Shown in pieces: positions 17,818 to 36,454 of a DNA stretch of 64,000 bases; position 1 is the first letter of the stretch; the number at the start of each line of letters is the position of its first letter. Where the stretch lies: assembly GCA_900319975.1 (NCBI GenBank), contig ONQP01000001.1, positions 50,824-114,823 of the forward strand, given 5' to 3'. The notes below the pieces were generated by a model that saw only the letters and a program-made list of their open reading frames with translations, did no database searches and was not told the origin of the DNA. Made by a program: the position numbers and the translations under genes. This DNA is from an uncultured Bacteroidales bacterium (GTDB taxonomy: Bacteria > Bacteroidota > Bacteroidia > Bacteroidales > UBA932).

Positions 17818-20800
17818 CAGCTCCGTTTACGATAGATGGCGGCGTAGACCGTCGGGACATAGAACAGACTCACGAGCGTACCGGCGGCCATGCCGACGAT
17901 GACCACGAGGGCCATCGGGTACTGCAGGTCGGCGCCCATGTTGCCGCGCGACAGGAAAGGCGCCACCGCCAGGATGGTCGTCAGGGACGTCATCAGGATG
18001 GCCTTGAGGCGGCGATGGCCGGCTTCGTGGACGGCGTCCTCCACGGCCATGCCGGAACGGGCCAGGCGGTTGATCGTGTCGATCTTGAGGATCGAGTCGT
18101 TGATCACGATACCCGTGATGACCACCAGGCCGATCAGCGACATCATATTGATGCTCACGCCCAGCAGCCACAGGAAGCCCAGCGACACGGCGATGTCGAT
18201 CACCACCTCGGAAAGGATGATGAACGGCTGCAGGAGCGATTCGAACTGCGAAGCGAGGATCAGGAACAGCAGCGCCAGGGCGACCAGGAGCACCAGCAGC
18301 ATCTGGCGCATCATCTCCCGGTTGGAGAACCAGGCGCCGGTGAAGGCTGCGTCAAAGGCGCCGCCGCCGGCGTGGAGCGCCTGGCGGACCGCCGTCATCG
18401 CGGCCGGCACGTCGCGCGCCGGAATATCCAGCGCGAGCGGATAGAAGTTGCCGTCGTCGCCCGACACGAGCGCCTTGAAATCCAGGTCGAAGGTCTGCCG
18501 CATCAGCGCCGAAGCGGGAATGTCCACCTTCCGGTCACGCTCCTCGCTGTCCAGGACGCTGATGGTCGTATGGGCCAGGATCTCGGAAAGCTCCTCGGCG
18601 TCCGTTCCCAGCACGACGGGCACGGAACGCGACCCCTGGACGATCTCGAAGAGGCGGTTGCCGTTGAGCGCGTTGCGCAACGCATCCGTGAGGTCGCCGA
18701 AGCGGACGCCGTAGATGGCCATCCGCTCGGGATCGGCCACATACAGCACGTCCTGCTTGAGCGGGACGTCCTCGATCCGGACGTTCGGCAGGGCCGCACG
18801 GACACTGCGGATGGCCGACTTGACGCCGTCGACGGTCATGCCTTCGTCGGACGCGGGCCGCAGGCGGGCGAGCAGCTCCGGTTCGCGCTCCGCGAACACC
18901 ATCTCGAAGATGTTGCCGCTGCTGCCCCAGGCCGTGATGGCCGTCGGATACCTTTCGCGCAACTGCGCGGAAAGCCGCTCCTGCAGGCCGGCCAGCTCGC
19001 GCGCCGAACGGCAGCTCACATACAGGGAAGCTTCGCTCATCGACTGGTCGTCGCTGTGGCCCAGCACGAACTGCTGCACGCCCACCAGCGCCGTCGTCTG
19101 CTGCGAAACGCCCGCGGCCGCCTGCTCCAGCGAGACGATGCGCGCGCGGTTCTCCTCCAGGGTGATATGTTCGTTCCAGTCGATGCGCAGGAGCGCGTCG
19201 GTGTAGGTGATCGGCGGCAGTTTCTCCTTGTGCATCCCGACCACGCAGATGGCCGTCAGGGCGGCGCAGGCGAGGGGAAGCGCCCAGGCAATCCATTTGT
19301 GCGCGAGGCACCAGCCGACCGTGCGGTCATAGAAGCGCGTCGCGCCGTCGAAGCGGAGCCGCGACAGGAAGGCGTTCGGCTTGAAGGCCGGGAGCTTCTT
19401 GTAGAGCGCCCAGTAATAGACCGGCAGCACGATGACCGTCACGGCGTAGGAGACCAGCAGGACCGTGGTCACGGCGATGGCCTGGTCGTAGAAGAGCTGG
19501 CCCGCAAGGCCGTTGAGGAAGATCAGCGGGATAAACACGGCGCAGGTCGTGAGCACGGAGCTCAGCATCGCGCCGCGCACCTCCTTGGTGCCTTCGATCA
19601 CGGCGCTGCGCAGGGCCTCGCCCCGCTGCCAGCGGGCCGTGATGTTGTCCGTGAGCACGATGGTATTGTCCACCATCATACCGACGCCCAGCAAGAGGCC
19701 GGACAGGGAGATGATGTTGATCGAAAGGCCGATGGCGTAGAAGACGAAGAACGAGACGATCAGCGACACCGGAATCGTGAGCGCCACCAGCAGCGGCGAG
19801 CGGAGGTCCTTCATGAAGAAGAAGATCACGACGATGTCCAGCAGGATCGCCATCAGGATGTTGAGCAGCAGGTTGCGGATGGAGTAGTCCAGCAGCTCGG
19901 TCTGGTCGCGGGACATCGAGAACGCCATCTGCGGATAATCCTCGCGGAAATGGTCGAGCTGCTCCGCGATGCCCTTCTTGAGGTCGGACATCCGGGCCTC
20001 GCTCTGCTTGATCACGGCCAGCACCACGGCGTCGCGCCCGTCGCTCCGGGCGAAGCCCGTCCGCGGCGCTTCCTGCTCCCGCACGGCCGCCACGTCCTTG
20101 ATCTGGAGCACGCGCCCGCCCACCTTGAAGTAGACGTTGCCGATGTCCTCGCACGTCGCCGCGAAGGAACGGAACTTGACGTTGTAGTGGTATTCGCCGT
20201 CACGGATCGTCAGGTTGGAGAGATGGACGTTGGCCGACGAGACGCTCTGCTCGAACTGGGAGACGGACAGGTCCAGCCGCGCCAGGGCCTGGAGGTCCGG
20301 CACCACGAGGATCTCCCGCGAGGCGCCGCCGCTCAGGTCCACCATCGCCACCTCGGGCAGCTGCTCGATGCGCTTGGCAATCACGTCCTGCGCGAATTCA
20401 CTCATCCGCAGGAAGTTGCCGCCCTCTTCGCGCAGCGTCATGTTGATATAGAACGCCGGGATGTCCGTGGCGCTCGCCTTGAAGACCTTCGGGCGGTCGA
20501 TGCGCGGGAGCGAACCCATCGCCCGGTCGATCTTTTCGTTGACTTCGATGTAGAAATAGTCGATGTCCTGCCCCTCTTCGAACGAAAGCGTCATCGTGGC
20601 GCTGCCGTCCTTGGCCTCGGAGCGGATGTCCTTGAGATAGGCGATCTGCACGAGGGACTGGCGCAAGGGGGTCACGACGGCGTCGTTGAGCTCGCGCGCC
20701 GACATGTCCGGCGCCGCCACCTGCACGGTCACATAGGGGATGTCCACGTCCGGGATCAGCGACACGGGCAGCCGCCCGATGCCGACGAATCCCAGCACCA

Positions 20801-20858
20801 CGAAGACCAGCAGGATCATCGAGACGGAGACGGGGCGGTCCAGAAGCTTGCCGAGCAT
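17817..20858 (-). CDS. RND efflux pump permease, first of the tandem pair
   Basis: A 1013-residue HAE-type RND transporter. The N-terminus MLGKLLDRPVSVSMILLVFV and the strand after helix 1 (LPVSLIPDVDIPYVTVQVAA) are typical. Helix 4 carries LLLGVGMMVDNTIVLTDNI, the proton-relay region, and the following LFLNGLAGQLF-like block (PLIFLNGLAGQLFYDQAI) is intact. Final helices read VSINMMSLIGLVVITGIVIND. It works in the inner membrane with the adaptor just upstream (6 bases before its ATG) and the TolC-type channel, using the proton gradient to push substrates out of the cell. Confidence 0.93.
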   Translation of the reverse strand: MLGKLLDRPVSVSMILLVFVVLGFVGIGRLPVSLIPDVDIPYVTVQVAAPDMSARELNDAVVTPLRQSLVQIAYLKDIRSEAKDGSATMTLSFEEGQDIDYFYIEVNEKIDRAMGSLPRIDRPKVFKASATDIPAFYINMTLREEGGNFLRMSEFAQDVIAKRIEQLPEVAMVDLSGGASREILVVPDLQALARLDLSVSQFEQSVSSANVHLSNLTIRDGEYHYNVKFRSFAATCEDIGNVYFKVGGRVLQIKDVAAVREQEAPRTGFARSDGRDAVVLAVIKQSEARMSDLKKGIAEQLDHFREDYPQMAFSMSRDQTELLDYSIRNLLLNILMAILLDIVVIFFFMKDLRSPLLVALTIPVSLIVSFFVFYAIGLSINIISLSGLLLGVGMMVDNTIVLTDNITARWQRGEALRSAVIEGTKEVRGAMLSSVLTTCAVFIPLIFLNGLAGQLFYDQAIAVTTVLLVSYAVTVIVLPVYYWALYKKLPAFKPNAFLSRLRFDGATRFYDRTVGWCLAHKWIAWALPLACAALTAICVVGMHKEKLPPITYTDALLRIDWNEHITLEENRARIVSLEQAAAGVSQQTTALVGVQQFVLGHSDDQSMSEASLYVSCRSARELAGLQERLSAQLRERYPTAITAWGSSGNIFEMVFAEREPELLARLRPASDEGMTVDGVKSAIRSVRAALPNVRIEDVPLKQDVLYVADPERMAIYGVRFGDLTDALRNALNGNRLFEIVQGSRSVPVVLGTDAEELSEILAHTTISVLDSEERDRKVDIPASALMRQTFDLDFKALVSGDDGNFYPLALDIPARDVPAAMTAVRQALHAGGGAFDAAFTGAWFSNREMMRQMLLVLLVALALLFLILASQFESLLQPFIILSEVVIDIAVSLGFLWLLGVSINMMSLIGLVVITGIVINDSILKIDTINRLARSGMAVEDAVHEAGHRRLKAILMTSLTTILAVAPFLSRGNMGADLQYPMALVVIVGMAAGTLVSLFYVPTVYAAIYRKRS

Positions 20859-20864
20859 GGTGCG

Positions 20865-21944
20865 CTATTGCTTTTTGACGATGACGGTGGAGCCGTCGGC
20901 CAGGTTGAGATTGCCCGAGACGATGATTTCGTCGCCTTCGTTCAGCGTGGCGCCGCGGTCGGTGTTGGCCGTCACGGCGAAGGACTCGCTGTTGGCGTTG
21001 ACCGTGTGGACATAGACCCACTCCGCCTTGCCGCCCCGGTGGCGGAAGAGCACTTCCAGCCCGTCGCGGATCACGACGGCGCTCTTGGGGACGACCAGCT
21101 GCGCCGGGAGGTCCTTGTCGACGGTCACCTTGACGTTCATGCCGTCCAGCAGGCCGGCGGCGCCGGGGATGGTGGCCGTGACGGAGATCTGCCCGTTGCG
21201 GTCCACGGTCGGGTTGATCTGGCGGATCTGGCCGGCGAAGCGGCGCTCCGAGCCGAACGGCGACACGCTCACGCGCTGTCCGCGCGCCAGGAACCCGTAT
21301 TCCGACTCGAGGGCGGAGAACGTCACGTCATAGGTGCCGTCCGCGATCAGGGTGCACAGCGGATCGCCTCCGGTCCGGTCCCATTTCTTCAGCTGGAGGT
21401 CAGCCACCTTGCCGGAGAACGGGGCGCGGAGGACCGTGCCTTCGAGCGCGCGCTGCGCGCGGGCGTAGTCGTTGCGGGCGTTGCTATAGCCAGAGCGGAT
21501 GCCGGCAAGCTCCCGCACGTCGGCGGGGACGGATGCGCTGTCCGCAACGGCCCAGCCCTGGGTCGCCAGCACGTCGAGATACTCCAGGCGCGTGCGCGCC
21601 AGCTCGATGCGCGCCGACTCCAGCGCCAGGCGCTGCTCCGCGTCGTCCAGACGCGCGAGCACCGCGCCGCGCGCCACCGAGGCGCCGTTCTGCACCGGCA
21701 GGTCGACGATCTGGCCGCTTTCGCGGAAAGACAACGCGCTCCGCTGCGCGGCCACCAGCTTGCCGTTCGCGACCAGCTGCATCGGGAAAGACGTGCGCCG
21801 GAGCGTAATCACCTCCACTTCGTTCGTTTCAGGGCTGTAAGCAAGTTTGGACGCATCCTCCGGGTCCTGCTCCTGCGGGCCCTTGCAGGCCGCCAGGCAC
21901 AGGACGGCGAGCGTCACACACCAGGAAATCTTTCTTGTATTCAT
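20865..21944 (-). CDS. RND efflux periplasmic adaptor lipoprotein
   Basis: A 359-residue membrane fusion protein. A lipoprotein signal ends in LAVLCLAAC (Cys about residue 20), so the adaptor is lipid-anchored. The barrel-sandwich hybrid halves are visible (VVAAQRSALSFRESGQIVDL and GTVLRAPFSGKVADL), separated by a helical hairpin of about 75 residues, followed by the beta-barrel and membrane-proximal domains. It bridges the pump and the outer membrane channel. The gene follows the channel gene by one base and precedes the first pump by 6 bases. Confidence 0.93.
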   Translation of the reverse strand: MNTRKISWCVTLAVLCLAACKGPQEQDPEDASKLAYSPETNEVEVITLRRTSFPMQLVANGKLVAAQRSALSFRESGQIVDLPVQNGASVARGAVLARLDDAEQRLALESARIELARTRLEYLDVLATQGWAVADSASVPADVRELAGIRSGYSNARNDYARAQRALEGTVLRAPFSGKVADLQLKKWDRTGGDPLCTLIADGTYDVTFSALESEYGFLARGQRVSVSPFGSERRFAGQIRQINPTVDRNGQISVTATIPGAAGLLDGMNVKVTVDKDLPAQLVVPKSAVVIRDGLEVLFRHRGGKAEWVYVHTVNANSESFAVTANTDRGATLNEGDEIIVSGNLNLADGSTVIVKKQ

Positions 21945-21945
21945 C

Positions 21946-23427
21946 TTATTGCGTCATTTCTTCGAAGTTGACCGTCAGGTCGTCGCCGGCCAGGAAATCA
22001 TACAGCGTCAGCTTGCGCAGCGTGTAGTAGTATCTCCAGAAACTGGAGATGTCCTGGACATATTTCTGGATGGCTCCGTCGCTCTCCGTCCGGGCGTTGT
22101 TGAGCTCCAGGACCGTGGCCTTGCCGCTGCGGAATTTCTCTATCATAAGGCCATAGCGCTCCTGCGCGATGGCGGAAGCGCGGCGCGACACGTCGCACAG
22201 CTGGCGCTGGTTGTTGAACTGGCCCACGGCCGTGAAAAGGGAAATGCGCTTGTCATTCTCGGCCTGTTCCACCTGTGCGCGTACCACGTCGGCGGCCGCC
22301 TCGGCCTTCTTCACGCGCCCCCGGCCCCGGCCCCAGTCCAGGATCGGAATCGAGAAAGAGAGACCGACCACTTCCTGGTCTATCGTATTGGCATAGGCCG
22401 CCCGGAACTCCGGGGCCACGGAGGAGAGGCCGAATGAGGCGTTAAGCTGCAGCGTAATGCCCCGGTCGGCCTTGGCGCGGGCCACCGCAGATTCCGCCTC
22501 GAGCAGGCTGATGTCGTTGGCGAGATGGAACGAGGAATTCTCGGCGGTCTTCCGGAGCACGAGGTCGTAGTCCATGACCAAGGCCGGGAGCGCCTCCTCC
22601 AGGACCGTCTCCACCTCGCGGGTCTCGTCCAGGCCCAGCAGCGAGTTGAGCTGCATTCGCGCTTCGCGCAGAGACACGCCCCGCTCGCTGATGGTGAGGC
22701 TGTCCGAGAGCATGTCCAGCTCCAGCTGGAGGTAGTCTTCTCGCGTGATGCTCCCCAGCGCGAGGCGCTCCTTGGCGATGGAGAGATTCCGGGTTGAATT
22801 GTCGTAGTTGGTCTGGGCGACCTCATAGAGCTTCTGGGCCTCCATCACGCCGAAAAAACACTGCACGGCGCTCAGGGTCACGTCCTCCATGGTCTCCATA
22901 TAGACGCGCTTCGCCTTCTCGTAGGCTTTCGGGGAAATCAGTTTGTCCCACTTGAACGAATTGTAGGAGAACAGCGGCTGGTCATAGGAGAAACTGACCG
23001 GCACGGCGTTCCAGCCCGTCTTCTGGAGGCCCAGTTCATCGGTCCGGTAGAGACTGGTGGAAAGATTCAGGGTACCGCCGGTCAGCGCGATGTTCTGCGA
23101 GGCCTGCAGCGTCAGGCCGTTCTGCAGGTTGTTGGTCCGGACATAGACATACTCGGCCTTGTCCGGATGCAGGCTCCGCTGCCAGCTCCGGTTGAGGTTG
23201 CCGAGCTGCCCGATCAGGGACAGGGTCGGCAGCCGGCTCGCCTGATAGGCGCGCCAGGCCCAGTAGTCGGACACGAAAGCGGCGCGCGCCTCCAGCGCCG
23301 GCACGGACCGCATCCGCGCCGTGGCGATGGCCTCGTCGAGCGTCATCGGCTGCGCCGCCGCGCCAAGTGCGAAAAAAAATAAGGGCAAAACGCCTAATCC
23401 GAGTCTTACGAATCGCCAGTTCTTCAT
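21946..23427 (-). CDS. TolC family outer membrane channel
   Basis: Start ATG 23427 gives a clean signal peptide (MKNWRFVRLGLGVLPLFFFALGAAAQ). The mature part opens with MTLDEAIATARMRS, the standard outer membrane efflux protein start, and shows the duplicated long helical hairpins, with RLALGSITREDYLQLELDM in the first and KFRSGKATVLELNNARTES in the second. It forms the outer membrane exit duct for the two RND pumps encoded downstream. First gene of the operon. The 100-base gap upstream contains a near-match -7 box (TAACTTTA, one mismatch) but no perfect one. Confidence 0.92.
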   Translation of the reverse strand: MKNWRFVRLGLGVLPLFFFALGAAAQPMTLDEAIATARMRSVPALEARAAFVSDYWAWRAYQASRLPTLSLIGQLGNLNRSWQRSLHPDKAEYVYVRTNNLQNGLTLQASQNIALTGGTLNLSTSLYRTDELGLQKTGWNAVPVSFSYDQPLFSYNSFKWDKLISPKAYEKAKRVYMETMEDVTLSAVQCFFGVMEAQKLYEVAQTNYDNSTRNLSIAKERLALGSITREDYLQLELDMLSDSLTISERGVSLREARMQLNSLLGLDETREVETVLEEALPALVMDYDLVLRKTAENSSFHLANDISLLEAESAVARAKADRGITLQLNASFGLSSVAPEFRAAYANTIDQEVVGLSFSIPILDWGRGRGRVKKAEAAADVVRAQVEQAENDKRISLFTAVGQFNNQRQLCDVSRRASAIAQERYGLMIEKFRSGKATVLELNNARTESDGAIQKYVQDISSFWRYYYTLRKLTLYDFLAGDDLTVNFEEMTQ

Positions 23428-23528: not shown

Positions 23529-24107
23529 TCATGAAAAATATTTCTCTTTAATCGTTTCCAAATATGCCTCGTAAACGGCATTATACCGGCTATTTGGTGT
23601 AAATATGTGAAATACGGTGCCATTAAACAAAATGAAAAGACACGGTTCGTTCGTATTCTCCGACTCAAGCCCCCAGTTTTCGCCATATTTTAAAGTAATC
23701 GTGTTCCCAAGTTTCTTCTGCGGCTCCGTTTTTAAATCTGACACAACAAATAGAACCCTCTTGTTTGATTGATAATCCGGGAATGCTTTACCTAAACCCT
23801 TGACGACATTGTTAAGACAACTCGAGCACGAGAAATTCGAATATCGGATTATTAACAACGGCGTATCCTGAAGCTCGTTTTCTTGGACATATTCACAGAT
23901 TCTTTTCGCATCAATATGTGTAGCATCATCCAGGATAGAAGCGATTGTCTGGTTAATCTGAGTCATATACAAAAGCTTTGCTTCTTCGGAAGTGTCCCCC
24001 TTGATTCGGCTGACCTTGGAAAGAATTGCGACGGAAATACCTAGCAGAGCAATTAAAGCAAGTGCGAGGATGCCAACGATCAACTTATTTCGCAAGTTCT
24101 TATTCAT
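23529..24107 (-). CDS. Membrane-anchored thioredoxin-like protein (module A)
   Basis: One N-terminal membrane helix (about residues 8-30, LIVGILALALIALLGISVAI) is followed by a thioredoxin-like domain with a CxxC motif in NFSCSSCLNNVVKG near residue 98, preceded by a predicted strand LLIIRY and followed by KRVLFVVSD. It probably faces the periplasm and reduces or isomerises disulfides, or acts as a redox sensor. It overlaps the upstream propeller gene by 8 bases. Base composition is much more AT-rich than the rest of the window. The same order, propeller then thioredoxin-like protein, recurs at 28087-27544. Confidence 0.85.
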   Translation of the reverse strand: MNKNLRNKLIVGILALALIALLGISVAILSKVSRIKGDTSEEAKLLYMTQINQTIASILDDATHIDAKRICEYVQENELQDTPLLIIRYSNFSCSSCLNNVVKGLGKAFPDYQSNKRVLFVVSDLKTEPQKKLGNTITLKYGENWGLESENTNEPCLFILFNGTVFHIFTPNSRYNAVYEAYLETIKEKYFS

Positions 24108-25290
24108 CTATAAATTCATATCTTACAAGAATGATGTTCGATTCATCCTTTATTTGTTTAAGCGTCTCTAAATCTCGGCGATCTTTTAATACATTCTCAT
24201 TGACAACAATACCAATGATACTGGGGTTAATCAAATAATACATCTTGTTCTCGACAATTTCTCCCGCCAAGAGGTAAACCCCTTCCTTAGTCTGTTTGAC
24301 GATCGTTGCTTGATTCCGTTCTTTATCAAACACAATGGCATTCCAATTATTGCGTCCTTTGAAACGGAAATTTTGGAGGAGATATTTGCGGGTTTCCGCA
24401 GTACGGCAGAATGAGAAAGCGGACTTGCGTGTCATCGTTTCCGCCAACCGGGAATAATAGAAATAGTCTTTATCCGGTGTCAACTCTTCGGCATTAAAAC
24501 TATACTTCCCCATATCCCAACTCGACTCCCTGGCTAAAGACTTCCCGTCAAAGCGATACACCGAACCATCACTTTTCTCAACATAAAACAATCCTTGATC
24601 GGTGTCAAAAAACGGAGACCCACCTCCGCAGAAAGAAGACCTTCGAAGCCACTCAGGGACAGAGTTGCTCAATGGACGAGCGGCAATATCTTCATCAGTA
24701 GAACAAATGAAAACCGCCGGAGAATCAACTAACGAATAAAAAAGATACTCTTTTTGAGACGCTGCCGCGAAAAAATGGGCCGAGTTCATTTTCTCAGACA
24801 GATCTATGGTTTGTTCCCAAGACAAGTCCTGTAAGCGATATTTATATATGATTCCTCGAGGATCCAGAATATCCAATGTGTTTGTGTACTTGTTTACAAT
24901 CATATCTTGAGCCATTGTAAACTCTCCCGGTCCACGCCCAAAATAATTAGATGTAGAAATAAGCTTACCTTGATAATCAAACCTTTTCAGCAAATGATCT
25001 CCGCGATCCAGGAGAAAGAAAGAAGAGTCCCCAAAAGCCTTGCATATAATGGTCTCTTCAGCAACTTGTGCGTTGAGCGCATTCTCCAACTCCACTATTT
25101 CTACTTTGGAAAAAACATCGAAAATGGAGAACTCCTTGGAAAAGCCCGCGTCAAGGTTTATAACAATACCGTCAGAAGCGCCCTGGGAGTCTCGTGTGTT
25201 ATTTGAACAAGAAGCGCACAGAACGGAAAGGGCGCCAATAATCAAAAAGGAGCGGAGGTGCTTTACTGTCGGGTAATAACCGTATACCAT
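24100..25290 (-). CDS. Six-bladed beta-propeller lipoprotein (module A)
   Basis: From ATG 25290 the product has a lipoprotein signal ending SVLCASC (about residue 27) and about 370 residues of propeller-like repeats. A family hallmark is NYFGRGPGEFTMAQDM, the RGPGE block that also occurs in the propellers at 35244-36401 and 36455-37540. Such proteins (the Bacteroidetes 6-bladed beta-propeller group) usually sit at the cell surface or in the periplasm and are thought to bind ligands; no enzymatic residues are evident. The longer in-frame start at 25431 runs through the hairpin region and is not preferred. The gene is AT-rich and follows the small peptide gene after 92 bases containing a perfect hairpin. 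Confidence 0.85.
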   Translation of the reverse strand: MVYGYYPTVKHLRSFLIIGALSVLCASCSNNTRDSQGASDGIVINLDAGFSKEFSIFDVFSKVEIVELENALNAQVAEETIICKAFGDSSFFLLDRGDHLLKRFDYQGKLISTSNYFGRGPGEFTMAQDMIVNKYTNTLDILDPRGIIYKYRLQDLSWEQTIDLSEKMNSAHFFAAASQKEYLFYSLVDSPAVFICSTDEDIAARPLSNSVPEWLRRSSFCGGGSPFFDTDQGLFYVEKSDGSVYRFDGKSLARESSWDMGKYSFNAEELTPDKDYFYYSRLAETMTRKSAFSFCRTAETRKYLLQNFRFKGRNNWNAIVFDKERNQATIVKQTKEGVYLLAGEIVENKMYYLINPSIIGIVVNENVLKDRRDLETLKQIKDESNIILVRYEFIDE

Positions 25291-25327
25291 AAATAACCTG
25301 AACAAAAAAAGGGAAAACAGCAAGGAA

Positions 25328-25358
25328 ACAACCGTATTTAGTATGCCAATACGGTTGT
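25328..25358 (-). promoter_or_regulatory. Intercistronic hairpin between peptide and propeller, module A
   Basis: ACAACCGTATT (25328-25338) and AATACGGTTGT (25348-25358) form a perfect 11-bp stem with a 9-nt loop. It lies between the stop of the peptide gene (25383) and the propeller start (25290). There is no T-run directly after it on the minus strand (the nearest is about 20 nt away), so it looks more like an mRNA processing, stability or attenuation element than a plain terminator. A hairpin of the same size and position occurs in module B at 29162-29190. Confidence 0.7.
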
Positions 25359-25382
25359 CGAAAGAATTAATCTCTGATAGTT

Positions 25383-25658
25383 CTAACAGTAAAGGAAGAA
25401 ATCCCGGAGGAAAACGCCCAAGAGTGTACAATTATCACTTTGTCTTCCCGTCCAAATACATGTATACATAGGGATGGTTGTTGACGCATCTCCATAGGTA
25501 AAACAACGACCCCATTCTCCTGCGCTACAAACAATCTCTGCCCCCTCTATTTCATCTTGCTTCTGTTCCTGTTTCGCGCTTGCATTAACCGCTAACATAG
25601 AAAACAGACAAACAGCTGCCCCTAACAGCATTCCCAAAAACTTTACTCGAGATTTCAT
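25383..25658 (-). CDS. Small secreted cysteine-containing peptide (NVEALA-like, module A)
   Basis: The start at 25658 gives a 91-residue precursor with a signal peptide (KFLGMLLGAAVCLFSMLAVNASA), a short charged linker (KQEQKQDEIEGAE) and a mature part of about 50 residues with five cysteines, the last being the C-terminal residue (FFLYC). The DEIEGAE stretch sits where NVEALA proteins have DNVEAL, so I regard it as a divergent relative or functional analogue of the peptide at 29212-29484. An upstream in-frame ATG at 25754 would bury the signal peptide and is rejected. The gene is AT-rich. Function unknown; a secreted effector, signal or surface peptide is the natural guess. Confidence 0.72.
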   Translation of the reverse strand: MKSRVKFLGMLLGAAVCLFSMLAVNASAKQEQKQDEIEGAEIVCSAGEWGRCFTYGDASTTIPMYTCIWTGRQSDNCTLLGVFLRDFFLYC

Positions 25659-26115
25659 AATGATGTTTTGATAAATTCTGCCGCCCTTCCGTTGCAGAGA
25701 TAACAAAAAAGAAGGCGCGATGGCCGGACTCCATTCCTCCCCATCGCCGAGCACAATCGATCTCTAAATAAATAACTTATGTCCGTGTGAATGGGGCATA
25801 TGAGTATCGCCTTCCTCAGGGCCGTTAGCGCAACTCTCATACATTACCGCATACCCGTAATGCAAAAGCCATTAACACTTCCGACCTTATTCCAAACCAT
25901 TAGACGCCAACTTTCTCATCAAAAGTTATAGCATCTTCGTTTGATAAAAATATGAATTCTCCTCTAGTCTGGCAATAACGTCATCCTGCTGTTATCATTT
26001 TCTTCGTCCCATCCTTAATAGATACGCCTCAGATGGCGTTTTTCGGGTGATGCTGTTAGCATTTTTGTTCGTCTAAATCTCCATGTTTTCATCTTCATAA
26101 AGAAGATCGAAACCA
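25659..26115. other. AT-rich intergenic region between the two peptide modules
   Basis: No convincing gene is seen in these 457 bases. Just upstream of the module A peptide lies a one-mismatch -7 box on the minus strand (TATCTCTG, 25695-25702). Two short hairpins with T-tails read in the plus direction: CGCC/GGCG followed by TTTTT near 26025-26041, and ATGCT/AGCAT followed by TTTTT near 26050-26066. On the minus strand, ATCTTC/GAAGAT near 26092-26108 follows the stop of the O-antigen-ligase-like gene. The longest plus-strand frame starting at an ATG is about 46 codons and shows nothing recognisable. Confidence 0.5.
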
Positions 26116-27519
26116 TTATCTCAGGGTGGTCCCGGCATGTCCCGCCGAAGCGTTCGTGACGGCCTGCAGGGAGTCCAGCGTCGCCATCGATTCTTCGCGC
26201 AGGCGGACCATGCCCGCGTGCCGGTCGTTCACCGGCATCAGCGCGATCTGACGCGCCGTGCGCAGGGCGTCCTTGTCCCGCCCCTGGCGGATCTGCAGAC
26301 GCATCTGACGCACCAGCGGATACAGGCGTGACGGCACCATATAGTGCGCTTTCTCGTAGAGCGCCTCCGCCTTGTCAACTTCGCCGAGCGCCTCGGCGTT
26401 CCGCCCCAGGATGACCTCGAACATCGGGTCGCAGCTCAGCTTCGCGCCCCGCTCCAGCACCGCCGAGCTTTCGGCAAAACGCCCCTCCTGTTGCAGCGCG
26501 TACCCTTGCCGGTACAGGATTTCGTGCTCGTGCCGGTCGGTCTGCCCCGGCACGCCCCGGAATCCGACCCAGCCGGCCAGCAAGACGGCCGCAAACAGCG
26601 GGAGGAATCCGGATAAATGTAGTTTCCGATGGCCCAGCACCCCGGTCACGACGGCGGCCAGGATGAGTACGCCGCCCAGGATGCGCGAACGGGGCTCGGA
26701 CAGTGGATAGGAAGCGAAGGCGAACAGGGCCCAGGCCGTCAGGCCCGCGGCGAAAGGACTGTTTCTCCGGTATAGCACGACCAGCGCCGCGACGACCAGC
26801 ACGACGGCCAGCAACAGCCCGGGCAGCCCATATTCCACGCCTGCTCCAAGGTATTCGTTGAAAGCGAATTCCGGGCAACCGGCCACGCGGACGACCGTCG
26901 GCGAGACCGTTTCAAGATTATCCCGGAAAAAGGCTTCCTGCGCCTCGCCATAAGCCCAGGCGAACATCCCGGGGCCCGCGCCCGTCAGCGGGCGCTCGGC
27001 GATAGCGCGGCATTCCACTCGCCAGATATGCAGCCGCCCGATGGCGGAATCCGGCTTGAGCAGGAATGCACCCACCAGCAGCACAAGGATCAGCCCGATG
27101 CTGATGGGTATGACTTTCTGATGTCGGCGGACCCAGACCCGCACACGCGGCAGGCGCAGGACTTCTGCGCCCAGGGCCACCCCCAGGGCCAGCCATCCGG
27201 TCCGGCTCATCGATACTGGAAGCACCAGCATCCCCATAACCAAAACCGCACCGGCCAGCAACCTTGTACCCAGTCGGACAGGTTTCGGAAGAATAGGGGT
27301 CTTGAGGAGCCAGGCTCCGGCCACCGCCATCACACAGGCGATGAAGCAACCGAACGGACCCGGGTTGATGAAATGCCCCGTCAGCGCAAACGCAGCGTTC
27401 CGCGAATGCCGCCAGCCCATCAGCTGTGCCAAGCCACAGCCTGCCTCCTCAATGCCCCAGAGAAAGATTCCGGCCGCCAGGCAAGTCAACAGGACAATAT
27501 GCAAACTCTTCCGATTCAT
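26116..27519 (-). CDS. O-antigen-ligase-like polytopic membrane protein with TPR tail
   Basis: About nine to eleven hydrophobic helices fill residues 5-325, including SMSRTGWLALGVALG and a large loop carrying RPLTGAGPGMFAWAYGEAQ, the conserved region of the Wzy_C/O-antigen ligase family. The last 130 residues form TPR-like helices (YRQGYALQQEGRFAESSAVL; NAEALGEVDKAEALYEKAHY). Known relatives ligate or polymerise surface glycans; in this setting it might modify an exported peptide or propeller lipoprotein with sugar, but that is only inferred from context. Follows the thioredoxin-like lipoprotein gene after 24 bases, so it is probably the last gene of the module B transcript. GC-rich, unlike module A. 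Confidence 0.82.
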   Translation of the reverse strand: MNRKSLHIVLLTCLAAGIFLWGIEEAGCGLAQLMGWRHSRNAAFALTGHFINPGPFGCFIACVMAVAGAWLLKTPILPKPVRLGTRLLAGAVLVMGMLVLPVSMSRTGWLALGVALGAEVLRLPRVRVWVRRHQKVIPISIGLILVLLVGAFLLKPDSAIGRLHIWRVECRAIAERPLTGAGPGMFAWAYGEAQEAFFRDNLETVSPTVVRVAGCPEFAFNEYLGAGVEYGLPGLLLAVVLVVAALVVLYRRNSPFAAGLTAWALFAFASYPLSEPRSRILGGVLILAAVVTGVLGHRKLHLSGFLPLFAAVLLAGWVGFRGVPGQTDRHEHEILYRQGYALQQEGRFAESSAVLERGAKLSCDPMFEVILGRNAEALGEVDKAEALYEKAHYMVPSRLYPLVRQMRLQIRQGRDKDALRTARQIALMPVNDRHAGMVRLREESMATLDSLQAVTNASAGHAGTTLR

Positions 27520-27543
27520 AAACGATATCCGACTCTATATTGA

Positions 27544-28083
27544 TTATTTCTTGCGCACGACGTCTTCAAACACCGTCCACAGCTCCTCGGAAGATATCGG
27601 ATCTCCGACAAACTTGGGGTGGCCCTTTGCATCCATGTAGAAACGATGGAAGAAAGGATAGTCTTCCATGGCGGGATTGGCCTTGTAGAAAGACTGGTTC
27701 ATATCGATCAGGACCGGATGGGCCAGGTCGAAAAGCTCCATGGTCTCCACCGTCTTCTTCGCATCCTTCGCCTCAGGCGAGAACACCAGCAGGACATCAA
27801 AAGGCGACTCCGTCTCAGCCAGGCGATACAGCGGATCCAGATAAGCCAGCCGCTTGGCATTGCACATCGAGCATTGGGTCGAGTCGAACCAATAGATCAT
27901 CTTGGGCATGTTCTCCCGGAGATCGGCGGCACCGGACTGGCCGTCAAAGACCTGTACCAGGCCGGAAGGAACGGTAATCGTCTCCCTGGAGAAGTTCTGG
28001 GCCATCCGCTCCATATGCCCCAGTCTCTCATTGCAAGCCACCAGAAGCAGCCCGGCGGCGATCATAAACAATACTTTCTTCAT
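27544..28083 (-). CDS. Thioredoxin-like lipoprotein (module B)
   Basis: A lipoprotein signal (MKKVLFMIAAGLLLVAC) anchors a thioredoxin-like domain with CxxC in FDSTQCSMCNAKRL near residue 73, a strand before it (KMIYWF) and DVLLVFSPEAKDAKK after it. At 179 residues it is close in size to the module A thioredoxin-like protein (192), although the anchor differs: lipid here, a membrane helix there. Likely role: thiol-disulfide chemistry in the periplasm, plausibly on the cysteine-rich peptide encoded just upstream. The start lies 3 bases after the propeller stop. Confidence 0.86.
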   Translation of the reverse strand: MKKVLFMIAAGLLLVACNERLGHMERMAQNFSRETITVPSGLVQVFDGQSGAADLRENMPKMIYWFDSTQCSMCNAKRLAYLDPLYRLAETESPFDVLLVFSPEAKDAKKTVETMELFDLAHPVLIDMNQSFYKANPAMEDYPFFHRFYMDAKGHPKFVGDPISSEELWTVFEDVVRKK

Positions 28084-28086
28084 CTT

Positions 28087-29145
28087 TTATTTCCCCGCCA
28101 TTGCGACCAGGGCCTCCAATTTAACTTTCCAGATAATCATTCCTTCGTCATCGCCGAAGCCAAAGAAATACGCCGAGTCACCTTGCAGGGTGCTGTTCGT
28201 CACCTGCCAGCCTTCCGGCATCCTGAGATTGAAGCAATAGGTCTTTCCTTCCTGCATGTCATGCAGGGCATACATCGCCCTCTTGCGGGAAGACAGATAA
28301 GAGAAGCCCAGATACTTGCCAGCCTCGCTGAGGCAGGTGATGGAATACGAGAAATCCTTGTTCTCAAGCTCCTTGGCAATATCGTTGATCATTTCGAACT
28401 CGTCCTTGTAGTTGTCCAGGTTCGGGGTTCCGTCCGTGAACTCCACCCGATACTTCACATAGCGGTCGTTTTCGGTGACCTGCCAGATCTTGTCCTTCAG
28501 CGGGCCGACGAACAGCGTCCCTTCCTCGTTTTTGGCAAAAGGATATCCGATGCGCATTCCGGACAGGAGCGTCTCTTCGCCGATCAGATGAATCAGCTGG
28601 TAATCGTTGTCAAAAAGACCCAGTTCGACCGTCTCACCCTTCACGCCCCGATAGGTCATCCGGCCAATCCAATGGTCGGCGTCCAGTCGCACCATCGCCT
28701 GGAAAGGATTTTCGCCCTCGGACGCAGGCTTCACGTCCTGGAAGATACCGTCGCGGGAATAGCGCAGGATCTTGTGAGAGTCCAAGTCATACAGACAGAT
28801 GTCTTCTCCGTCGAACCAGTGCTCCCAAAGGCGGATGTACTCCTCCTGCGCGCGGCCGCGGCGGCCGATCACCAACTCTTTCCGACCGTCCTGGAGAGAA
28901 TAACGGTACAGCGTGTCTCCGGCGTTGAAATACGCACTGCCGTCTCCCGGAATTTCCACGTGGACCGGCGCAGCAAGCGGACTGGGATTCAAGGCGATTT
29001 CCTCGAAGATCTCGGAATCGAACGGATTGACCTCGATAGCATTCTTCGTGTCGCAGACGATCGTGTCCACGTTCTCGCTCTGGCGACATCCGTTCAAGGC
29101 GACGAGCGCAAGGCCCGAAACCAACAGAATGATGATTCTTTTCAT
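28087..29145 (-). CDS. Beta-propeller-like lipoprotein (module B)
   Basis: The signal MKRIIILLVSGLALVALNGC gives a lipid-anchored protein of 352 residues. The body consists of strand-rich repeats such as GDTLYRYSLQDGRKELVIG, EDICLYDLDSHKILRYSRDG and NEEGTLFVGPLKDKIWQVTE, fitting a six-bladed propeller of the BF3164/DUF4934 type. It lacks the exact RGPGE block, having RRGRAQEEYIRL at that place. Probably periplasmic or surface-exposed and ligand-binding. It follows the NVEALA peptide gene after 66 bases that hold a hairpin, and precedes the thioredoxin-like gene by 3 bases. Confidence 0.84.
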   Translation of the reverse strand: MKRIIILLVSGLALVALNGCRQSENVDTIVCDTKNAIEVNPFDSEIFEEIALNPSPLAAPVHVEIPGDGSAYFNAGDTLYRYSLQDGRKELVIGRRGRAQEEYIRLWEHWFDGEDICLYDLDSHKILRYSRDGIFQDVKPASEGENPFQAMVRLDADHWIGRMTYRGVKGETVELGLFDNDYQLIHLIGEETLLSGMRIGYPFAKNEEGTLFVGPLKDKIWQVTENDRYVKYRVEFTDGTPNLDNYKDEFEMINDIAKELENKDFSYSITCLSEAGKYLGFSYLSSRKRAMYALHDMQEGKTYCFNLRMPEGWQVTNSTLQGDSAYFFGFGDDEGMIIWKVKLEALVAMAGK

Positions 29146-29161
29146 TTTCTTCTTTTTTAAG

Positions 29162-29190
29162 AGGGTTGCAGACAGGGCGCCTGCAACCCT
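29162..29190 (-). promoter_or_regulatory. Intercistronic hairpin between NVEALA peptide and propeller, module B
   Basis: AGGGTTGCAG (29162-29171) and CTGCAACCCT (29181-29190) form a perfect 10-bp stem with a 9-nt loop. On the minus strand it is followed by CTTAAAAAAGAAGAAAATG, a purine-rich stretch holding the propeller ribosome binding region, and not by a T-run. Position, loop length and stem length match the module A hairpin although the sequences differ, which points to conserved function, for example making the peptide message more abundant than the downstream genes. Confidence 0.75.
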
Positions 29191-29211
29191 GATTTCTTCT
29201 AAATACTTCGA

Positions 29212-29484
29212 TTAGACACAGAAGCAGCCGCGGGCGCCGCAGCAGGCATAACCGGAACCGCAGCTGACGCTGCAAGAAATACCACTGCCGGCAATGTTAC
29301 CTTCAATGCTGCAGCCATTGGCACCGGGGCCACCGGCGAGACAGCGGGGGTCTTCACTTGCACACAGAGCCTCTACATTGTCAGCCCAGGGGTTCTGGTT
29401 CATGCCAGCTTTCTTGATGCCCATGGCAACACCAACACTGAGGACGAGCATCATAGCAGTCGCGATAAGGATTCTTTTTTTCAT
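29212..29484 (-). CDS. NVEALA-family secreted peptide, nine cysteines (module B)
   Basis: The 90-residue precursor has a signal or anchor segment (ILIATAMMLVLSVGVAMGI), a short linker, then the family signature WADNVEALC at about residues 33-41. The remaining part of about 55 residues is rich in Gly and Cys, with nine cysteines counting that of the signature, including SCSVSC, ACC and a GCFCV ending. The NVEALA family is restricted to Bacteroidetes and has no settled function. No radical SAM, lanthipeptide or YcaO enzyme is nearby, so disulfides rather than RiPP chemistry seem likelier. The gene lies between a signal peptidase I gene (57 bases upstream) and a hairpin. The AT-rich leader of about 57 bases has no perfect TAnnTTTG box. 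Confidence 0.88.
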   Translation of the reverse strand: MKKRILIATAMMLVLSVGVAMGIKKAGMNQNPWADNVEALCASEDPRCLAGGPGANGCSIEGNIAGSGISCSVSCGSGYACCGARGCFCV

Positions 29485-29541: not shown

Positions 29542-30384
29542 TCAAATGATTCCCATTACAAATTCCTCCGGGACGAAACCCAGATAGCGGCTGTCCCGCG
29601 AATCCAGCACGTTGTCTCCCACAAAGAAGCACCAGTCCTTCCGGAAGGTATATTCTTCGACCTGACGGCCCTCCAGCCAGGCCTGGCCCCGGGTCCATTC
29701 GGGGCGGAAGCCCGTCTCATAGCAGATCGCCTTGGCGTAATGCCGGACTCCGACGCTGTCCAGGCGGACGGTCATGCCCCGCGCCGGCACCACCAGCGGG
29801 CCGAAGTCCCGGATCGTCCAGTTCCTGTGCTCCCGGGCGAAGTAGCCCGCCTCGTAGCCACACAGATCTGCCGTTTCCGCATCGGACATCGCGCGCAGCT
29901 CCGCTTCCCGTTCCAGGGGAATGCCGGTCGGATCGGCTCCGGAGCTGTAGTAATGGGCGTTCCGCGCACCGACCGTGTCCCCTGCCGCTCCCAGGCAACG
30001 CTTCGCGTAAACGTTGTTGATCTGGAACGTGACCGTGTCGAAGTGCTCCCATCCGTCCGGTCCGTTGAAGACCGCGATGTCTCCGGCGCGCAGCCGGCGG
30101 AGTCCCGGCAGTCGGAAGCAGTGCAACGGTTCTCCCTCTTCGAAGTTGAAGCGCGTGAAGATCCGCGGTCCCATCAGGTATTTCCGAACCCACATGCTCT
30201 GGCCGGACACCAGCGTCGGCGTCATGGACGGCCCCCGGGCGATGACATGGTCGCACACCAGAATCCTGCGCCCGTAGTGCAGCACCACCAGGCCGATGAC
30301 CGCTACGCCAAGCCAGATGACCGCCTTGGCAATCCGATCCGCCGTCCGCGAGGACAATGCCTTTATGATCCGCTCCTTCTTCAT
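29542..30384 (-). CDS. lepB: Signal peptidase I, S26 family
   Basis: A 280-residue protein with one N-terminal helix (AVIWLGVAVIGLVVLHY), the catalytic Ser in ARGPSMTPTLVSG, the catalytic Lys in NNVYAKRCLGAAGD, and the terminal S26 block FFVGDNVLDSRDSRYLGFVPE. All S26 signature elements are present, so it should be active. It is set inside the accessory cluster, directly before the NVEALA peptide gene and one base after the CBM9-like gene, so it is more likely a dedicated enzyme that frees the cluster's exported peptide than the housekeeping signal peptidase. That specialisation is an inference from position. Confidence 0.92.
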   Translation of the reverse strand: MKKERIIKALSSRTADRIAKAVIWLGVAVIGLVVLHYGRRILVCDHVIARGPSMTPTLVSGQSMWVRKYLMGPRIFTRFNFEEGEPLHCFRLPGLRRLRAGDIAVFNGPDGWEHFDTVTFQINNVYAKRCLGAAGDTVGARNAHYYSSGADPTGIPLEREAELRAMSDAETADLCGYEAGYFAREHRNWTIRDFGPLVVPARGMTVRLDSVGVRHYAKAICYETGFRPEWTRGQAWLEGRQVEEYTFRKDWCFFVGDNVLDSRDSRYLGFVPEEFVMGII

Positions 30385-30385
30385 G

Positions 30386-31426
30386 TTATTGCTCCAATGC
30401 GTAAATCTTGATTCCAGTATACTGCTCGGCGGGCGGGACGTCGTCCCAATGACCGGTCGCGTGGCACTCGTCCGTCTCCAGACGCAGCACGTACTTCCCG
30501 GCAGGCAGCCGGAGGGTATTCTCCTGGCGGCGGTTCTTCAGTGCTCCGCCCGCATGGACCGACTTGTCGAAGTCCAGCTGCCACAGCACTTCTCCCGACT
30601 CATTCTCCAAGCTCCCGTTGTCGAACATGAAGGCCGCCTGCCGCTTCACATCATCATTTATAACCACCAATACATATAAATTCTCCTGATCCCATAGCAG
30701 GCGATACTCGCCCGAGAGGTCGGCCTCGTCCCGCACCTTCCCCAAGATCACATGGCCGATCGGGAAGCGGTCCTGCTTCGCCCAGACCGCATCTTCCGCA
30801 CCGTCGATCTGCGGAGCGACTGCCGCGCGGTGTCCCGCCAGCGGGAAATCTCCGAACTGCGACCAGTCCATGAACAGCTGTGCGTCAATGCCGCTCCAGG
30901 CAATCTGCGACTTGCGGCTCTGGCCGTCGTTGTCGATGGCGCTCACGTCCAGGCGGAGCACCGTCCTGTCCGTCGGGACCCCGGCGAAGCCAAGGGTCTT
31001 CCAGGGGAAAGCGAGCTCAAACACATAGCTCGTCTCCGAAGGATCGCTCTGCGCGAAACGGACGCCCGTCGTGTCCGCGTTGTTGCCCGTCACCCGCCTG
31101 GAGTCCCAGACGAAGCGGTACTGCCGGCACACGGTCCCCAGGTCGATGAAGAACTCGATGCAGTCGTTGAGATAGGCCTCCACGAACCCGGGCACCAGCT
31201 CGAAGGATGTCCCCTCGGCCTGGCCGACGATCCGCACCGGCGCCTCCTTGCGGAGCGTGAAGGTGCGCGTCAGGGCCTGGTTGTTGTCCGAGGCGATCAG
31301 CTCGGCAAGGCAGGCGGGGTCCGAGGCCGGCGCGGGAGCCTCGGCCGGCAGGTGCACGCGCACCGGGCGGCAGGCGGCCAGCAGGCCGACAAGGGCCAGA
31401 CCGTATATGAGCTTTCTCAATACCAT
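30386..31426 (-). CDS. Lipoprotein with CBM9-like domains
   Basis: The signal MVLRKLIYGLALVGLLAAC makes this a lipoprotein. Two regions resemble the CBM9/DOMON-like fold: residues about 55-200, with VFELAFPWKTLGFAG and SAIDNDGQSRKSQIAWSG, and residues about 205-346, beginning PQIDGAEDAVWA and continuing EYRLLWDQENLYVLVVINDD. CBM9-like modules bind sugars or heme-like ligands. No catalytic motif is seen. It overlaps the transglutaminase-like gene by 10 bases and is followed one base later by the signal peptidase gene, so all three are co-expressed. Role in the cluster is unknown; surface display or ligand capture are possible. Confidence 0.8.
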   Translation of the reverse strand: MVLRKLIYGLALVGLLAACRPVRVHLPAEAPAPASDPACLAELIASDNNQALTRTFTLRKEAPVRIVGQAEGTSFELVPGFVEAYLNDCIEFFIDLGTVCRQYRFVWDSRRVTGNNADTTGVRFAQSDPSETSYVFELAFPWKTLGFAGVPTDRTVLRLDVSAIDNDGQSRKSQIAWSGIDAQLFMDWSQFGDFPLAGHRAAVAPQIDGAEDAVWAKQDRFPIGHVILGKVRDEADLSGEYRLLWDQENLYVLVVINDDVKRQAAFMFDNGSLENESGEVLWQLDFDKSVHAGGALKNRRQENTLRLPAGKYVLRLETDECHATGHWDDVPPAEQYTGIKIYALEQ

Positions 31427-32817
31427 ACCTGTTTACCGTTTTCGTAAGTGAATATTCTCTCCTGCTCCCCTTTGTCCAGGTTGCGCAGCCACAGCAGCGC
31501 GCCCTTGGGTACCCGTTCGTATACCAATACCGTGTCGGTCGCTTCCTGTTTGCCCAGGGATTCCCATTGACCGCGCCAGCAGAACAACTCGTAATGCTCT
31601 CCCGGGAAGATGGCATTGCTGTCGTCTTCGGGGTATTTCGCCGTCAGGCGGACCGTCTGGCTCCATATGCTCGGCCGGAAGATCTTCACGGTGCCGTCGC
31701 GCTTCACGACCAGCGGCCAGTTGAGCGAGCGTTTGCGGCCGTTCTCAAGGAGCACCGGCAGGAAGGCCACTTCCCGTGCAACCGCTTTGTATTCAACACG
31801 CAGGCCCTTCCACTCGCCTTCGCCCACACAGACCCAGTTGGCATTGTCAAAGACCATCAGCTGCGGCTCACCCGAGCGGTTCCACCGCCCCCATACGGAC
31901 AGGTCGGCCGTCTGCAGATATTCCGTCGTCACGTCGATGCTCCCGGCGTTCAGGTAGTCCTTCCGCAGGACTTTCGGGCGTTTGCGGATCATCCGGCCCA
32001 CGCCGACGAACTCCTGCTTGGCCCTGCCCGGCTCCAGGTCGGTGGAGCTGAACGGGATCAGCCTGCCGTCTACATACATGCCGTTCCATGCATGCTCGCC
32101 GCTTCTGTTGCCCCAGTTCGGCACATAGTCGTAGGTAGCACACACGCCCAGCGCACGCAGCGGATAGAGGATCATCAGCGAGGCGCCTTTGCACGTGCCC
32201 TCCCGCAGTTGCTTCGCTTTCAGGTAGCCGGCGTCGGTCGGATAGTTCCAGTTGAAACGGAACGTAAACCATTTGCGGGCCTCGCGGGCAACCCGGCAAC
32301 AAATCTCGGGGGCTGTCATCCCTGCTTCCGCAAGCGCCTGCTGACGCAATGCCGCAAATTCTTCCCAGACGGCGGCACGCCAGCGCTCCGGCGCTTCGTT
32401 CCCCATTTTATACGGAAGCAGGTACCGACAGAAATCTTCGAAGGATACATCTTTCGCCCAAGGCAGTTCCCAAGCCTTGAACGCGTAGTCGATATTCTCT
32501 GCCAGATAGTCCGCGTCGATCACCTTCATATCGGACACCCGCACGAGCGCGGTCGACTCCTCGAGCTGCGTCACGTCGTAGTGCCACTGCTCGGGAAGGC
32601 CGGCCAGCAGGTATTCCGCGGCCTTGCGCTTCAGGCTGTCGGCCTCAGATGCGTAGCGCGACAGCAGGTTCCCGGAAATCTCCAGGAAACGCCGGGACTG
32701 CACCTGGGCCGGCTGCGCCTGGGAAGAGACACCCGCCCCCTCCTTGCCGCCGCTACAGGCGGTGGCAAGAAGGAACAGGCAGGCGATGGACAGGATCCGG
32801 CGCATAGACTTGGACAT
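31417..32817 (-). CDS. Transglutaminase-like lipoprotein
   Basis: With ATG 32817 the protein has a lipoprotein signal (MRRILSIACLFLLATAC) and 466 residues. A transglutaminase/protease-like core spans about residues 190-290, with the Cys in LREGTCKGASLMIL, the His in RSGEHAWNGMYVDG and the Asp in PFSSTDLEPG, so the catalytic triad is complete. The C-terminal 200 residues look like strand-rich domains (KIFRPSIWSQTVRLTAKYP). Relatives act as cysteine peptidases, amidases or cross-linkers. Here it could process or cross-link an exported peptide or surface protein; this is inferred from its place between a DUF3244 gene and the CBM9-like, signal peptidase and NVEALA genes. Confidence 0.85.
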   Translation of the reverse strand: MSKSMRRILSIACLFLLATACSGGKEGAGVSSQAQPAQVQSRRFLEISGNLLSRYASEADSLKRKAAEYLLAGLPEQWHYDVTQLEESTALVRVSDMKVIDADYLAENIDYAFKAWELPWAKDVSFEDFCRYLLPYKMGNEAPERWRAAVWEEFAALRQQALAEAGMTAPEICCRVAREARKWFTFRFNWNYPTDAGYLKAKQLREGTCKGASLMILYPLRALGVCATYDYVPNWGNRSGEHAWNGMYVDGRLIPFSSTDLEPGRAKQEFVGVGRMIRKRPKVLRKDYLNAGSIDVTTEYLQTADLSVWGRWNRSGEPQLMVFDNANWVCVGEGEWKGLRVEYKAVAREVAFLPVLLENGRKRSLNWPLVVKRDGTVKIFRPSIWSQTVRLTAKYPEDDSNAIFPGEHYELFCWRGQWESLGKQEATDTVLVYERVPKGALLWLRNLDKGEQERIFTYENGKQVWY

Positions 32818-36401: not shown

Positions 36402-36438
36402 AGGATGTCAGGTTCATTAATGATGATATAAATATAGG
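36399..36438 (-). repeat. 40-bp direct repeat covering a propeller gene leader and start codon, copy 1
   Basis: Identical over 40 bases to 37538-37577 and ending exactly with the ATG of the gene. On the minus strand it begins CCTATATTTAT, close to a -7 box (TATATTTA against TAnnTTTG), then an AT-rich leader of about 25 nt. Flanking bases differ on both sides, so identity stops sharply at the start codon. Confidence 0.85.
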
Positions 36439-36454
36439 CAAAAATTCATATCAA

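Follow-up and report, generated by a model that had tools for sequence, protein, structure and literature searches.

What do two neighbouring gene sets do, each with a small secreted cysteine-containing peptide, a propeller lipoprotein and a thioredoxin-like protein with a CxxC motif, and do they act on their own? The question is raised by a stretch of 64,000 nucleotides from an uncultured Bacteroidales bacterium (assembly GCA_900319975.1, contig ONQP01000001.1, positions 50,824 to 114,823), hereafter the window, which lies on contig C57 of a genome of 2.19 Mb and 88% completeness. An earlier note on the window had described the two sets, modules A and B, as a conserved architecture. In this study, we find both modules within a larger gene neighbourhood that recurs in other genomes. 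We lean towards reading it as a chromosomal system that produces small peptides with disulfides and exports them, depends on Sec and on a resistance-nodulation-division (RND) pump and has propellers paired with the peptides. It looks like an undescribed peptide-secretion system that probably serves signalling or competition.

Little is known of peptide signals and bacteriocins in Bacteroidota, and RND pumps have mostly been studied as drug exporters. If true, our reading would give a function at once to several families that have none assigned, namely NVEALA, DUF5128 and TolB_like. Cysteine peptides are tied here to one RND pump type, to a signal peptidase and to adjoining propellers, and this tie is testable in cultivable Bacteroides. 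The listings and abstract openings of open-licence papers gave no description of the gene set; some of the search terms were broad and a relevant paper could be missed. The same kind of source gave no paper on NVEALA, and those listed for PF14055, BF3164 and a propeller phrase seemed, judged by their titles, to be unrelated.

Two modules in one neighbourhood

A recheck of the open reading frames (ORFs) found all six that had been claimed for the two modules in place and on the minus strand. In both modules the order is peptide, hairpin, propeller and CxxC protein, as described before. Module A is followed, with no change of strand, by TolC, HlyD and two RND permeases, and the tripartite RND exporter, with permeases, periplasmic adaptor and outer membrane factor, is complete at 14665-23427. 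Located 5' of module B are a signal peptidase I, a CBM9-like lipoprotein, a transglutaminase-like lipoprotein, a small secreted protein and a protein with tetratricopeptide repeats (TPR), a transmembrane (TM) segment and a helix-turn-helix (HTH); 3' of it lies an O-antigen-ligase/TPR protein. The earlier note had not connected signal peptidase I, transglutaminase-like protein, O-antigen-ligase/TPR protein and TolC-HlyD-RND pump with the modules. Its idea of an exported cysteine peptide with a thioredoxin-like partner and an adjoining propeller fits the data but is incomplete, since the module is part of this larger neighbourhood.

We rejected a recent duplication of module A into module B: the two thioredoxin-like proteins separate in profile searches and the peptides share no visible motif. 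Conserved architecture rather than a recent copy is supported, and it recurs in other genomes.

Recurrence of the gene set

Other Bacteroidales, among them Bacteroides ihuae, also have peptide-propeller-thioredoxin sets. The recurring neighbourhood comprises signal peptidase I, the transglutaminase-like lipoprotein, the O-antigen-ligase/TPR (Wzy-type) protein and the TolC-HlyD-RND pump. Recurrence was followed from three anchors: the NVEALA family (PF14055), HlyD and the transglutaminase-like protein of B. ihuae.

NVEALA is matched in 8 of 198 genomes of the order. Nineteen loci (L-numbers denote fetched loci, G-numbers genomes) came from seven of these; the eighth genome, with its match inside a frame of 568 amino acids, was left out. 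A propeller is present in 18 of the 19, as found with iterated profiles to which the same loci contributed. The sole locus without one (L098) is a contig of 5.4 kb and has a thioredoxin.

HlyD was found at 33 places in 30 of the 198 genomes (limit 1e-40). Twenty places were fetched and counted; the window and B. ihuae were excluded from the count and the other 11 were not taken. Twenty other RND operons served as controls; they came from the genomes of these loci, with B. ihuae in place of G079. A gene for a propeller, signal peptidase, thioredoxin, transglutaminase-like or Wzy protein (above 40 bits, a limit set after data inspection) accompanies 14/20 HlyD loci as compared to 1/20 control operons (Fisher 4e-5). 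At least two kinds of partner gene occur in six HlyD loci and in none of the controls, and a peptide immediately preceding a propeller or thioredoxin in five (one of them, L138, doubtful) and none, respectively. With the genomes that fed the profiles removed (five in the HlyD set and, among the controls, B. ihuae in addition), the counts are 11/15 versus 0/14 (5e-5). Two RND ORFs are present in 16 of the 20 HlyD loci.

The anchors also co-occur by genome. HlyD is present in 6/8 NVEALA genomes versus 24/190 others, and a full-length transglutaminase-like gene in 7/8 NVEALA genomes versus 21/190 others and in 12/30 HlyD genomes versus 16/168 others. These counts assume the same 198 genomes in the three samples, whose handles coincide. 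Full length was taken as E<=1e-60, again a limit set after inspection; 28 genomes were so counted by hand and the next best reached 6e-38.

Searching with the transglutaminase-like protein of B. ihuae led to eight named loci. B. ihuae itself has peptides, propellers, transglutaminase-like protein, Wzy, HlyD, RND and TolC in one locus (L153); signal peptidase and thioredoxin lie further along the contig (L066). In the stretch examined, B. graminisolvens has the whole set except signal peptidase, RND and TolC. A Paraprevotella metagenome-assembled genome (MAG) unites HlyD, TolC, Wzy, signal peptidase, thioredoxin, propeller, an NAEALA peptide and the transglutaminase-like protein (L156). In Joostella atrarenae, a member of the Flavobacteriia, transglutaminase-like protein, Wzy and a cysteine peptide lie close together (L160:9968-16671), and the system may thus span the phylum. 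P. xylaniphila has Wzy and the transglutaminase-like gene, and three further loci have the query gene alone. In a MAG labelled Clostridiales (L154) a 5 kb contig, maybe misassigned, carries a transglutaminase-like gene 57% identical to that of B. ihuae.

Leaders and cores of the peptides

Neither window peptide is convincingly matched by any Pfam or NCBIfam family. The mention of NVEALA in the earlier note needs correction: peptide B has the motif NVEALC, but its PF14055 match is below the curated cut-off of 27 bits (12.7 bits, E 0.235), and peptide A has neither motif nor match. Many peptides of the recurring set resemble this family in the leader type, with a motif after the hydrophobic helix, in a short cysteine-containing tail and in the place beside propellers, whereas their range of motifs is wider.

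Among 198 other genomes of the family, 10 contain a match to the core of peptide A with E<=0.01. Of these matches, three can be called fair (5.5e-8, 7.2e-7, 2.7e-5) and the others weak; two have an internal stop and one lies in a frame of 408 amino acids. Seven places were fetched to read their neighbourhood (L193-L199). Peptide A has the core C..G..G.C ... C.WTG...DNC in common with L193, L195, L196 and L198. The order peptide, propeller and CxxC protein, which the earlier note had proposed to look for in other genomes, is found, with a thioredoxin of the A type, at three of the seven (L193, L195, L197). L198 has peptide, propeller and thioredoxin twice, adjoining TolC-HlyD as module A adjoins TolC in the window. 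The contig of L196 has peptide and propeller without an A-type thioredoxin call; L194 has propeller and A-type thioredoxin with the match just upstream, where no ORF with a signal peptide was recovered; nothing of the set was found at the place fetched as L199. This homology of the core supports the ORF of peptide A as a gene. The order is not fixed throughout: peptide-propeller-thioredoxin recurs, but the thioredoxin often precedes the peptide (L085, L087, L090, L091).

The genome of the window has eight PF17170 propellers, four of them inside the window, and eight cysteine peptides. Six of the peptides are on contig C76, in a row of propeller, CxxC protein, cysteine peptide, propeller and five more cysteine peptides; their mean identity is 53% in the leaders and 30% in the cores. 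With only one HlyD of the linked type in the genome (E<=1e-40), a single pump may serve all its peptides. PF17170 is matched in 6 of the 25 genomes of the genus, its own included; the gene set is accessory. Locus L195 unites module A, module B and the C76 array on one strand: TPR-HTH protein, small secreted protein, A-type peptide (NLEALT), propeller, A-type thioredoxin, transglutaminase-like protein, C76-type peptide (MEALS), propeller, CxxC protein, CBM9 and signal peptidase.

Peptide anatomy was read from 45 precursors with the loose pattern [NH]xxA[LFI]x; peptide A, the L086 and L087 peptides and others were left out. Variants beyond NVEALA include NLEALT, NSKALA, NTDAFA and HIEALA, and the last position, left free in the pattern, is A, T, G or C in 41/45. 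Many peptides have a common leader that ends in an NVEALA-like, A-x-A motif, after which the cores diverge. A-x-A fits the rule of signal peptidase I. The pattern ends 15-27 residues past the hydrophobic helix in 40 precursors and at 6, 8, 13, 14 and 28 in the other five, of which at least two (L068:10437, L069:9737) are pattern matches just before the true motif. Cores contain an even number of cysteines (2, 4, 6 or 8) in 37/45. In five of six within-genome sets the leaders resemble one another more than the cores do, most extremely in G129 (89% versus 25%); G086 is the exception.

Peptides and propellers as pairs

Propellers A and B are both above the cut-off of PF17170, and the model of propeller B is most similar in the PDB to 4RAA (BF0058, B. 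fragilis) and 3S9J (DUF4221, B. vulgatus). They belong with the DUF5128/TolB_like 6-bladed propellers (PF17170, PF15869), the latter family being that of the L069 propeller. The family entries give no function, whereas here the propellers are tied to a peptide. Among 42 peptide-propeller pairs, similar propellers also have similar cores in 9 of 11 comparisons versus 7 of 850 others (similarity 0.2 and Z 4, set after inspection of the data; one case compares two loci of one genome, L091 and L092). Orthology contributes to this similarity, and the counts therefore speak for inheritance as a unit rather than for binding. A propeller may bind its adjoining peptide. Small-ORF calling was lenient, and two doubtful ORFs (L092:7318, L138:7301) are kept among the 42 pairs.

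Enzymes, pump and sensors

The signal peptidase I (S26) family match has a Ser-Lys pair, with Ser53 and Lys128 invariant in seven relatives. In the transglutaminase-like protein, Cys210 and His243 are invariant in seven relatives. Signal peptidase and transglutaminase-like protein are fused into one protein of 843 amino acids in L091. Residues 449-517 of another transglutaminase-like protein (L065:6568-8526) resemble carbohydrate-binding domains of 2yb7 and 5g56.

MdtABC-type RND exporters likewise consist of an adaptor, a TolC-family protein and two RND permeases. Unlike in these, the genes of the window pump are linked to those for peptides, for propellers and for a signal peptidase. The linkage suggests that the peptide is its substrate.

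The two CxxC proteins belong to different types. A-type relatives with an invariant CxxC are found in L193, L194, L195, L197 and L010, and an iterated B-type profile retrieves 20 further ORFs in the fetched loci. In the alignment, most B-type members, e.g. window 27544-28083, have F-H/Q-x-F at the position where thioredoxins have cis-proline, and the family may not be an ordinary oxidoreductase. Two B-type proteins (L069:7804-8667, L068:8496-9365) carry a C-terminal DUF1573 domain; separate DUF1573 proteins lie near the gene set in L072 and, by resemblance, L150. A thioredoxin-labelled protein without CxxC adjoins a propeller and TolC-RND in L084 (9621-10136).

Candidate sensors adjoin short two-cysteine peptides with a propeller. 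These are a histidine kinase and response regulator in L072 and L073, a kinase in L074, and a TM protein with a C-terminal winged helix in L066 (above the Pfam cut-off), L069 (below it) and, by resemblance only, L068 and L155. The sensor gene is upstream on the same strand in L155 and divergent in the others. In five other loci no sensor was found among the few genes scanned, which was not systematic.

Hairpins between peptide and propeller

The hairpins seen in both modules by the earlier note are real: their stems are perfect and unmatched by shuffles. The shared 9-nt loop is a coincidence: loop length ranges from 3 to 10 nt in the eight other significant stems. With module A counted from a propeller start at 25290, 22 of the 42 pairs have a gap below 40 nt (23 with the mechanical start; some starts are maybe miscalled). 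These gaps leave no room for a hairpin, and we rejected it as a defining part of the module. In gaps of at least 40 nt, a significant stem, i.e. one reached by at most 5% of shuffles, is present in 10/20 as compared to 9/64 gaps between other same-strand genes (Fisher 0.002). Sequence and loop length vary among loci and the hairpins are not alignable. On the simplest reading, they are a partial terminator or mRNA-stabilising element and yield more peptide than propeller.

Proposed mechanism and its alternatives

From gene content, order, recurrence, the pattern of leaders and cores and the linkage to one HlyD/RND type, we infer the following biochemical steps and biological role. Sec would take the precursors through the inner membrane. 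Their leader would be cut at a site of the N-x-E-A-L-A type by a dedicated signal peptidase I, perhaps together with the transglutaminase-like protein, and thioredoxin-like CxxC proteins would form or proofread disulfides. The mature peptide would then be moved across the outer membrane by a dedicated two-permease RND-HlyD-TolC pump. The propeller lipoprotein encoded just downstream could be the partner of the peptide, as receptor, carrier or immunity protein. Nearby sensors may tie some peptides to gene control. Most likely, the peptides would work from cell to cell, as pheromones or as bacteriocins of narrow range.

Several observations weigh against this proposal. No partner gene was found in 6/20 HlyD loci, the five loci with a peptide pair include the doubtful one, and 30 of the 198 genomes have HlyD as compared to just 8 with NVEALA. 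Many propellers lack an adjoining peptide, including two of the four in the window. Over all 42 pairs the correlation of peptide and propeller is weak (r 0.08, p 0.022). The model of the A-type thioredoxin fold is not confident (predicted local distance difference test score, pLDDT, 58), and the two RND permeases and the CxxC protein could serve other substrates. The cleavage-like site of most precursors is unusually far from the helix for an ordinary signal peptidase I; a dedicated peptidase would account for this distance.

Signal and weapon appear to us about equally probable as the role of the peptides, between which sequence does not decide. In a bacteriocin system, the cores would be toxins, the adjoining propeller lipoprotein the immunity protein and the sensors the means of density-controlled production. 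The conserved leaders with divergent cores in five of six sets, the presence of several peptides in a genome (eight in that of the window), the joint inheritance of adjoining peptide and lipoprotein and the patchy occurrence of PF17170 in the genus agree with it. However, we know of no soluble-type propeller that serves as an immunity fold, PADLOC gave no match for ten window proteins and many propellers have no peptide, so that we regard this account as possible and somewhat unlikely. Regulated class II bacteriocin loci of Gram-positive bacteria comprise an inducing peptide, kinase, regulator, peptide-immunity pairs and exporter. Like the present set they have precursors with a common leader, a partner gene beside each, sensors and an exporter; they differ by a GG leader, an ABC exporter and small immunity proteins, where we find a Sec leader with a signal-peptidase-like site, an RND pump and propellers. 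We have similar reservations about a pheromone system, in which the histidine kinase or TM regulator next to them would perceive short two-cysteine peptides, aided by the propeller, and these peptides would govern the other genes of the set. The kinases, response regulators and TM winged-helix proteins described above and a two-cysteine peptide type that is kept in L066, L068, L069 and L155 speak for it; yet five other loci examined lack such a gene, kinases are common in these bacteria and the adjacency count has no control.

It is improbable that the O-antigen-ligase and the transglutaminase-like protein anchor the peptides on surface polymers or glycans, with structural propellers. Both genes recur in the set, and the transglutaminase-like stretch resembles carbohydrate-binding modules of PDB 2yb7 and 5g56, but attachment needs neither RND-TolC pump nor sensors, and few HlyD loci contain either gene (Wzy in 2/20, the transglutaminase-like gene in 3/20). 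A chance neighbourhood of common envelope genes is more improbable still. On this view, propellers, thioredoxin-like proteins and RND pumps are frequent in Bacteroidota and the small ORFs would be over-called; the lenient procedure left several of them doubtful (L092:7318, L138:7301), and MAG contigs are short. Against this, 20 control RND operons give one match, the genes co-occur across 198 genomes, a gene fusion exists and the same set is reached from three anchors. We return to the secretion system as our preferred reading. Tentatively, it may form a new class of Gram-negative secretion system, with Sec-exported disulfide peptides matured by signal peptidase I, two-permease RND-TolC pumps, paired propeller receptors or immunity proteins and linked sensors, and be a widespread peptide language or weaponry of Bacteroidota.

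Features of the window

The features are collected in Table 1. The third and fourth propellers (35244-37540) stand in tandem.

Table 1. Genes and hairpins of modules A and B and of their surroundings in the window
Feature	Position	Strand	Remarks
Peptide A, secreted Cys peptide	25383..25658	(-)	91 aa; signal-like N-terminus; Cys-containing C-terminal part
Hairpin A	25328..25358	(-)	11-bp stem, 9-nt loop; 0/500 shuffles as good
Propeller A lipoprotein	24100..25290	(-)	likely ATG 25290, ORF opens 25431; PF17170 E 5e-19; lipobox-like LCASC
CxxC protein A, TM-anchored, A-type thioredoxin-like	23529..24107	(-)	CSSC; Pfam match below cut-off, E 0.1
TolC-family outer membrane protein	21946..23427	(-)	likely ATG 23427; PF02321 3.5e-33
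HlyD/RND periplasmic adaptor	20865..21944	(-)	TIGR01730 above cut-off; anchor of HlyD searches
RND permease 1	17817..20858	(-)	PF00873 1.6e-157
RND permease 2	14665..17817	(-)	PF00873 1.5e-97
Peptide B, NVEALC leader	29212..29484	(-)	90 aa; signal-like N-terminus; 8 Cys after motif
Hairpin B	29162..29190	(-)	10-bp stem, 9-nt loop; 0/500 shuffles as good
Propeller B lipoprotein	28087..29145	(-)	PF17170 E 1e-12; model pLDDT 88.8
CxxC protein B, B-type thioredoxin-like lipoprotein	27544..28083	(-)	CSMC; Pfam match below cut-off, E 0.023
O-antigen-ligase/TPR membrane protein (Wzy-type)	26116..27519	(-)	PF04932 1.2e-10; relatives adjoin peptide loci
Signal peptidase I (S26)	29542..30384	(-)	PF10502 5.7e-18; TIGR02227 above cut-off
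CBM9-like lipoprotein	30386..31426	(-)	PF06452 1.7e-26; also in L195
Transglutaminase-like lipoprotein	31417..32817	(-)	likely ATG 32817; PF01841 0.0041, below cut-off
Small secreted protein	32843..33244	(-)	no Pfam match; relatives in L087, L195
TPR-TM-HTH candidate regulator	33490..35178	(-)	no Pfam match itself; also in L195
Third propeller	35244..36401	(-)	PF17170; no peptide seen adjoining
Fourth propeller	36455..37540	(-)	PF17170; no peptide seen adjoining

Ten window proteins tested for phage defence gave no PADLOC match, and propeller A had no match in viral contigs. The small secreted protein may be DUF3244-like. The relative of the TPR-TM-HTH protein in L087 has weak matches to TPR and sigma-70 region 4.

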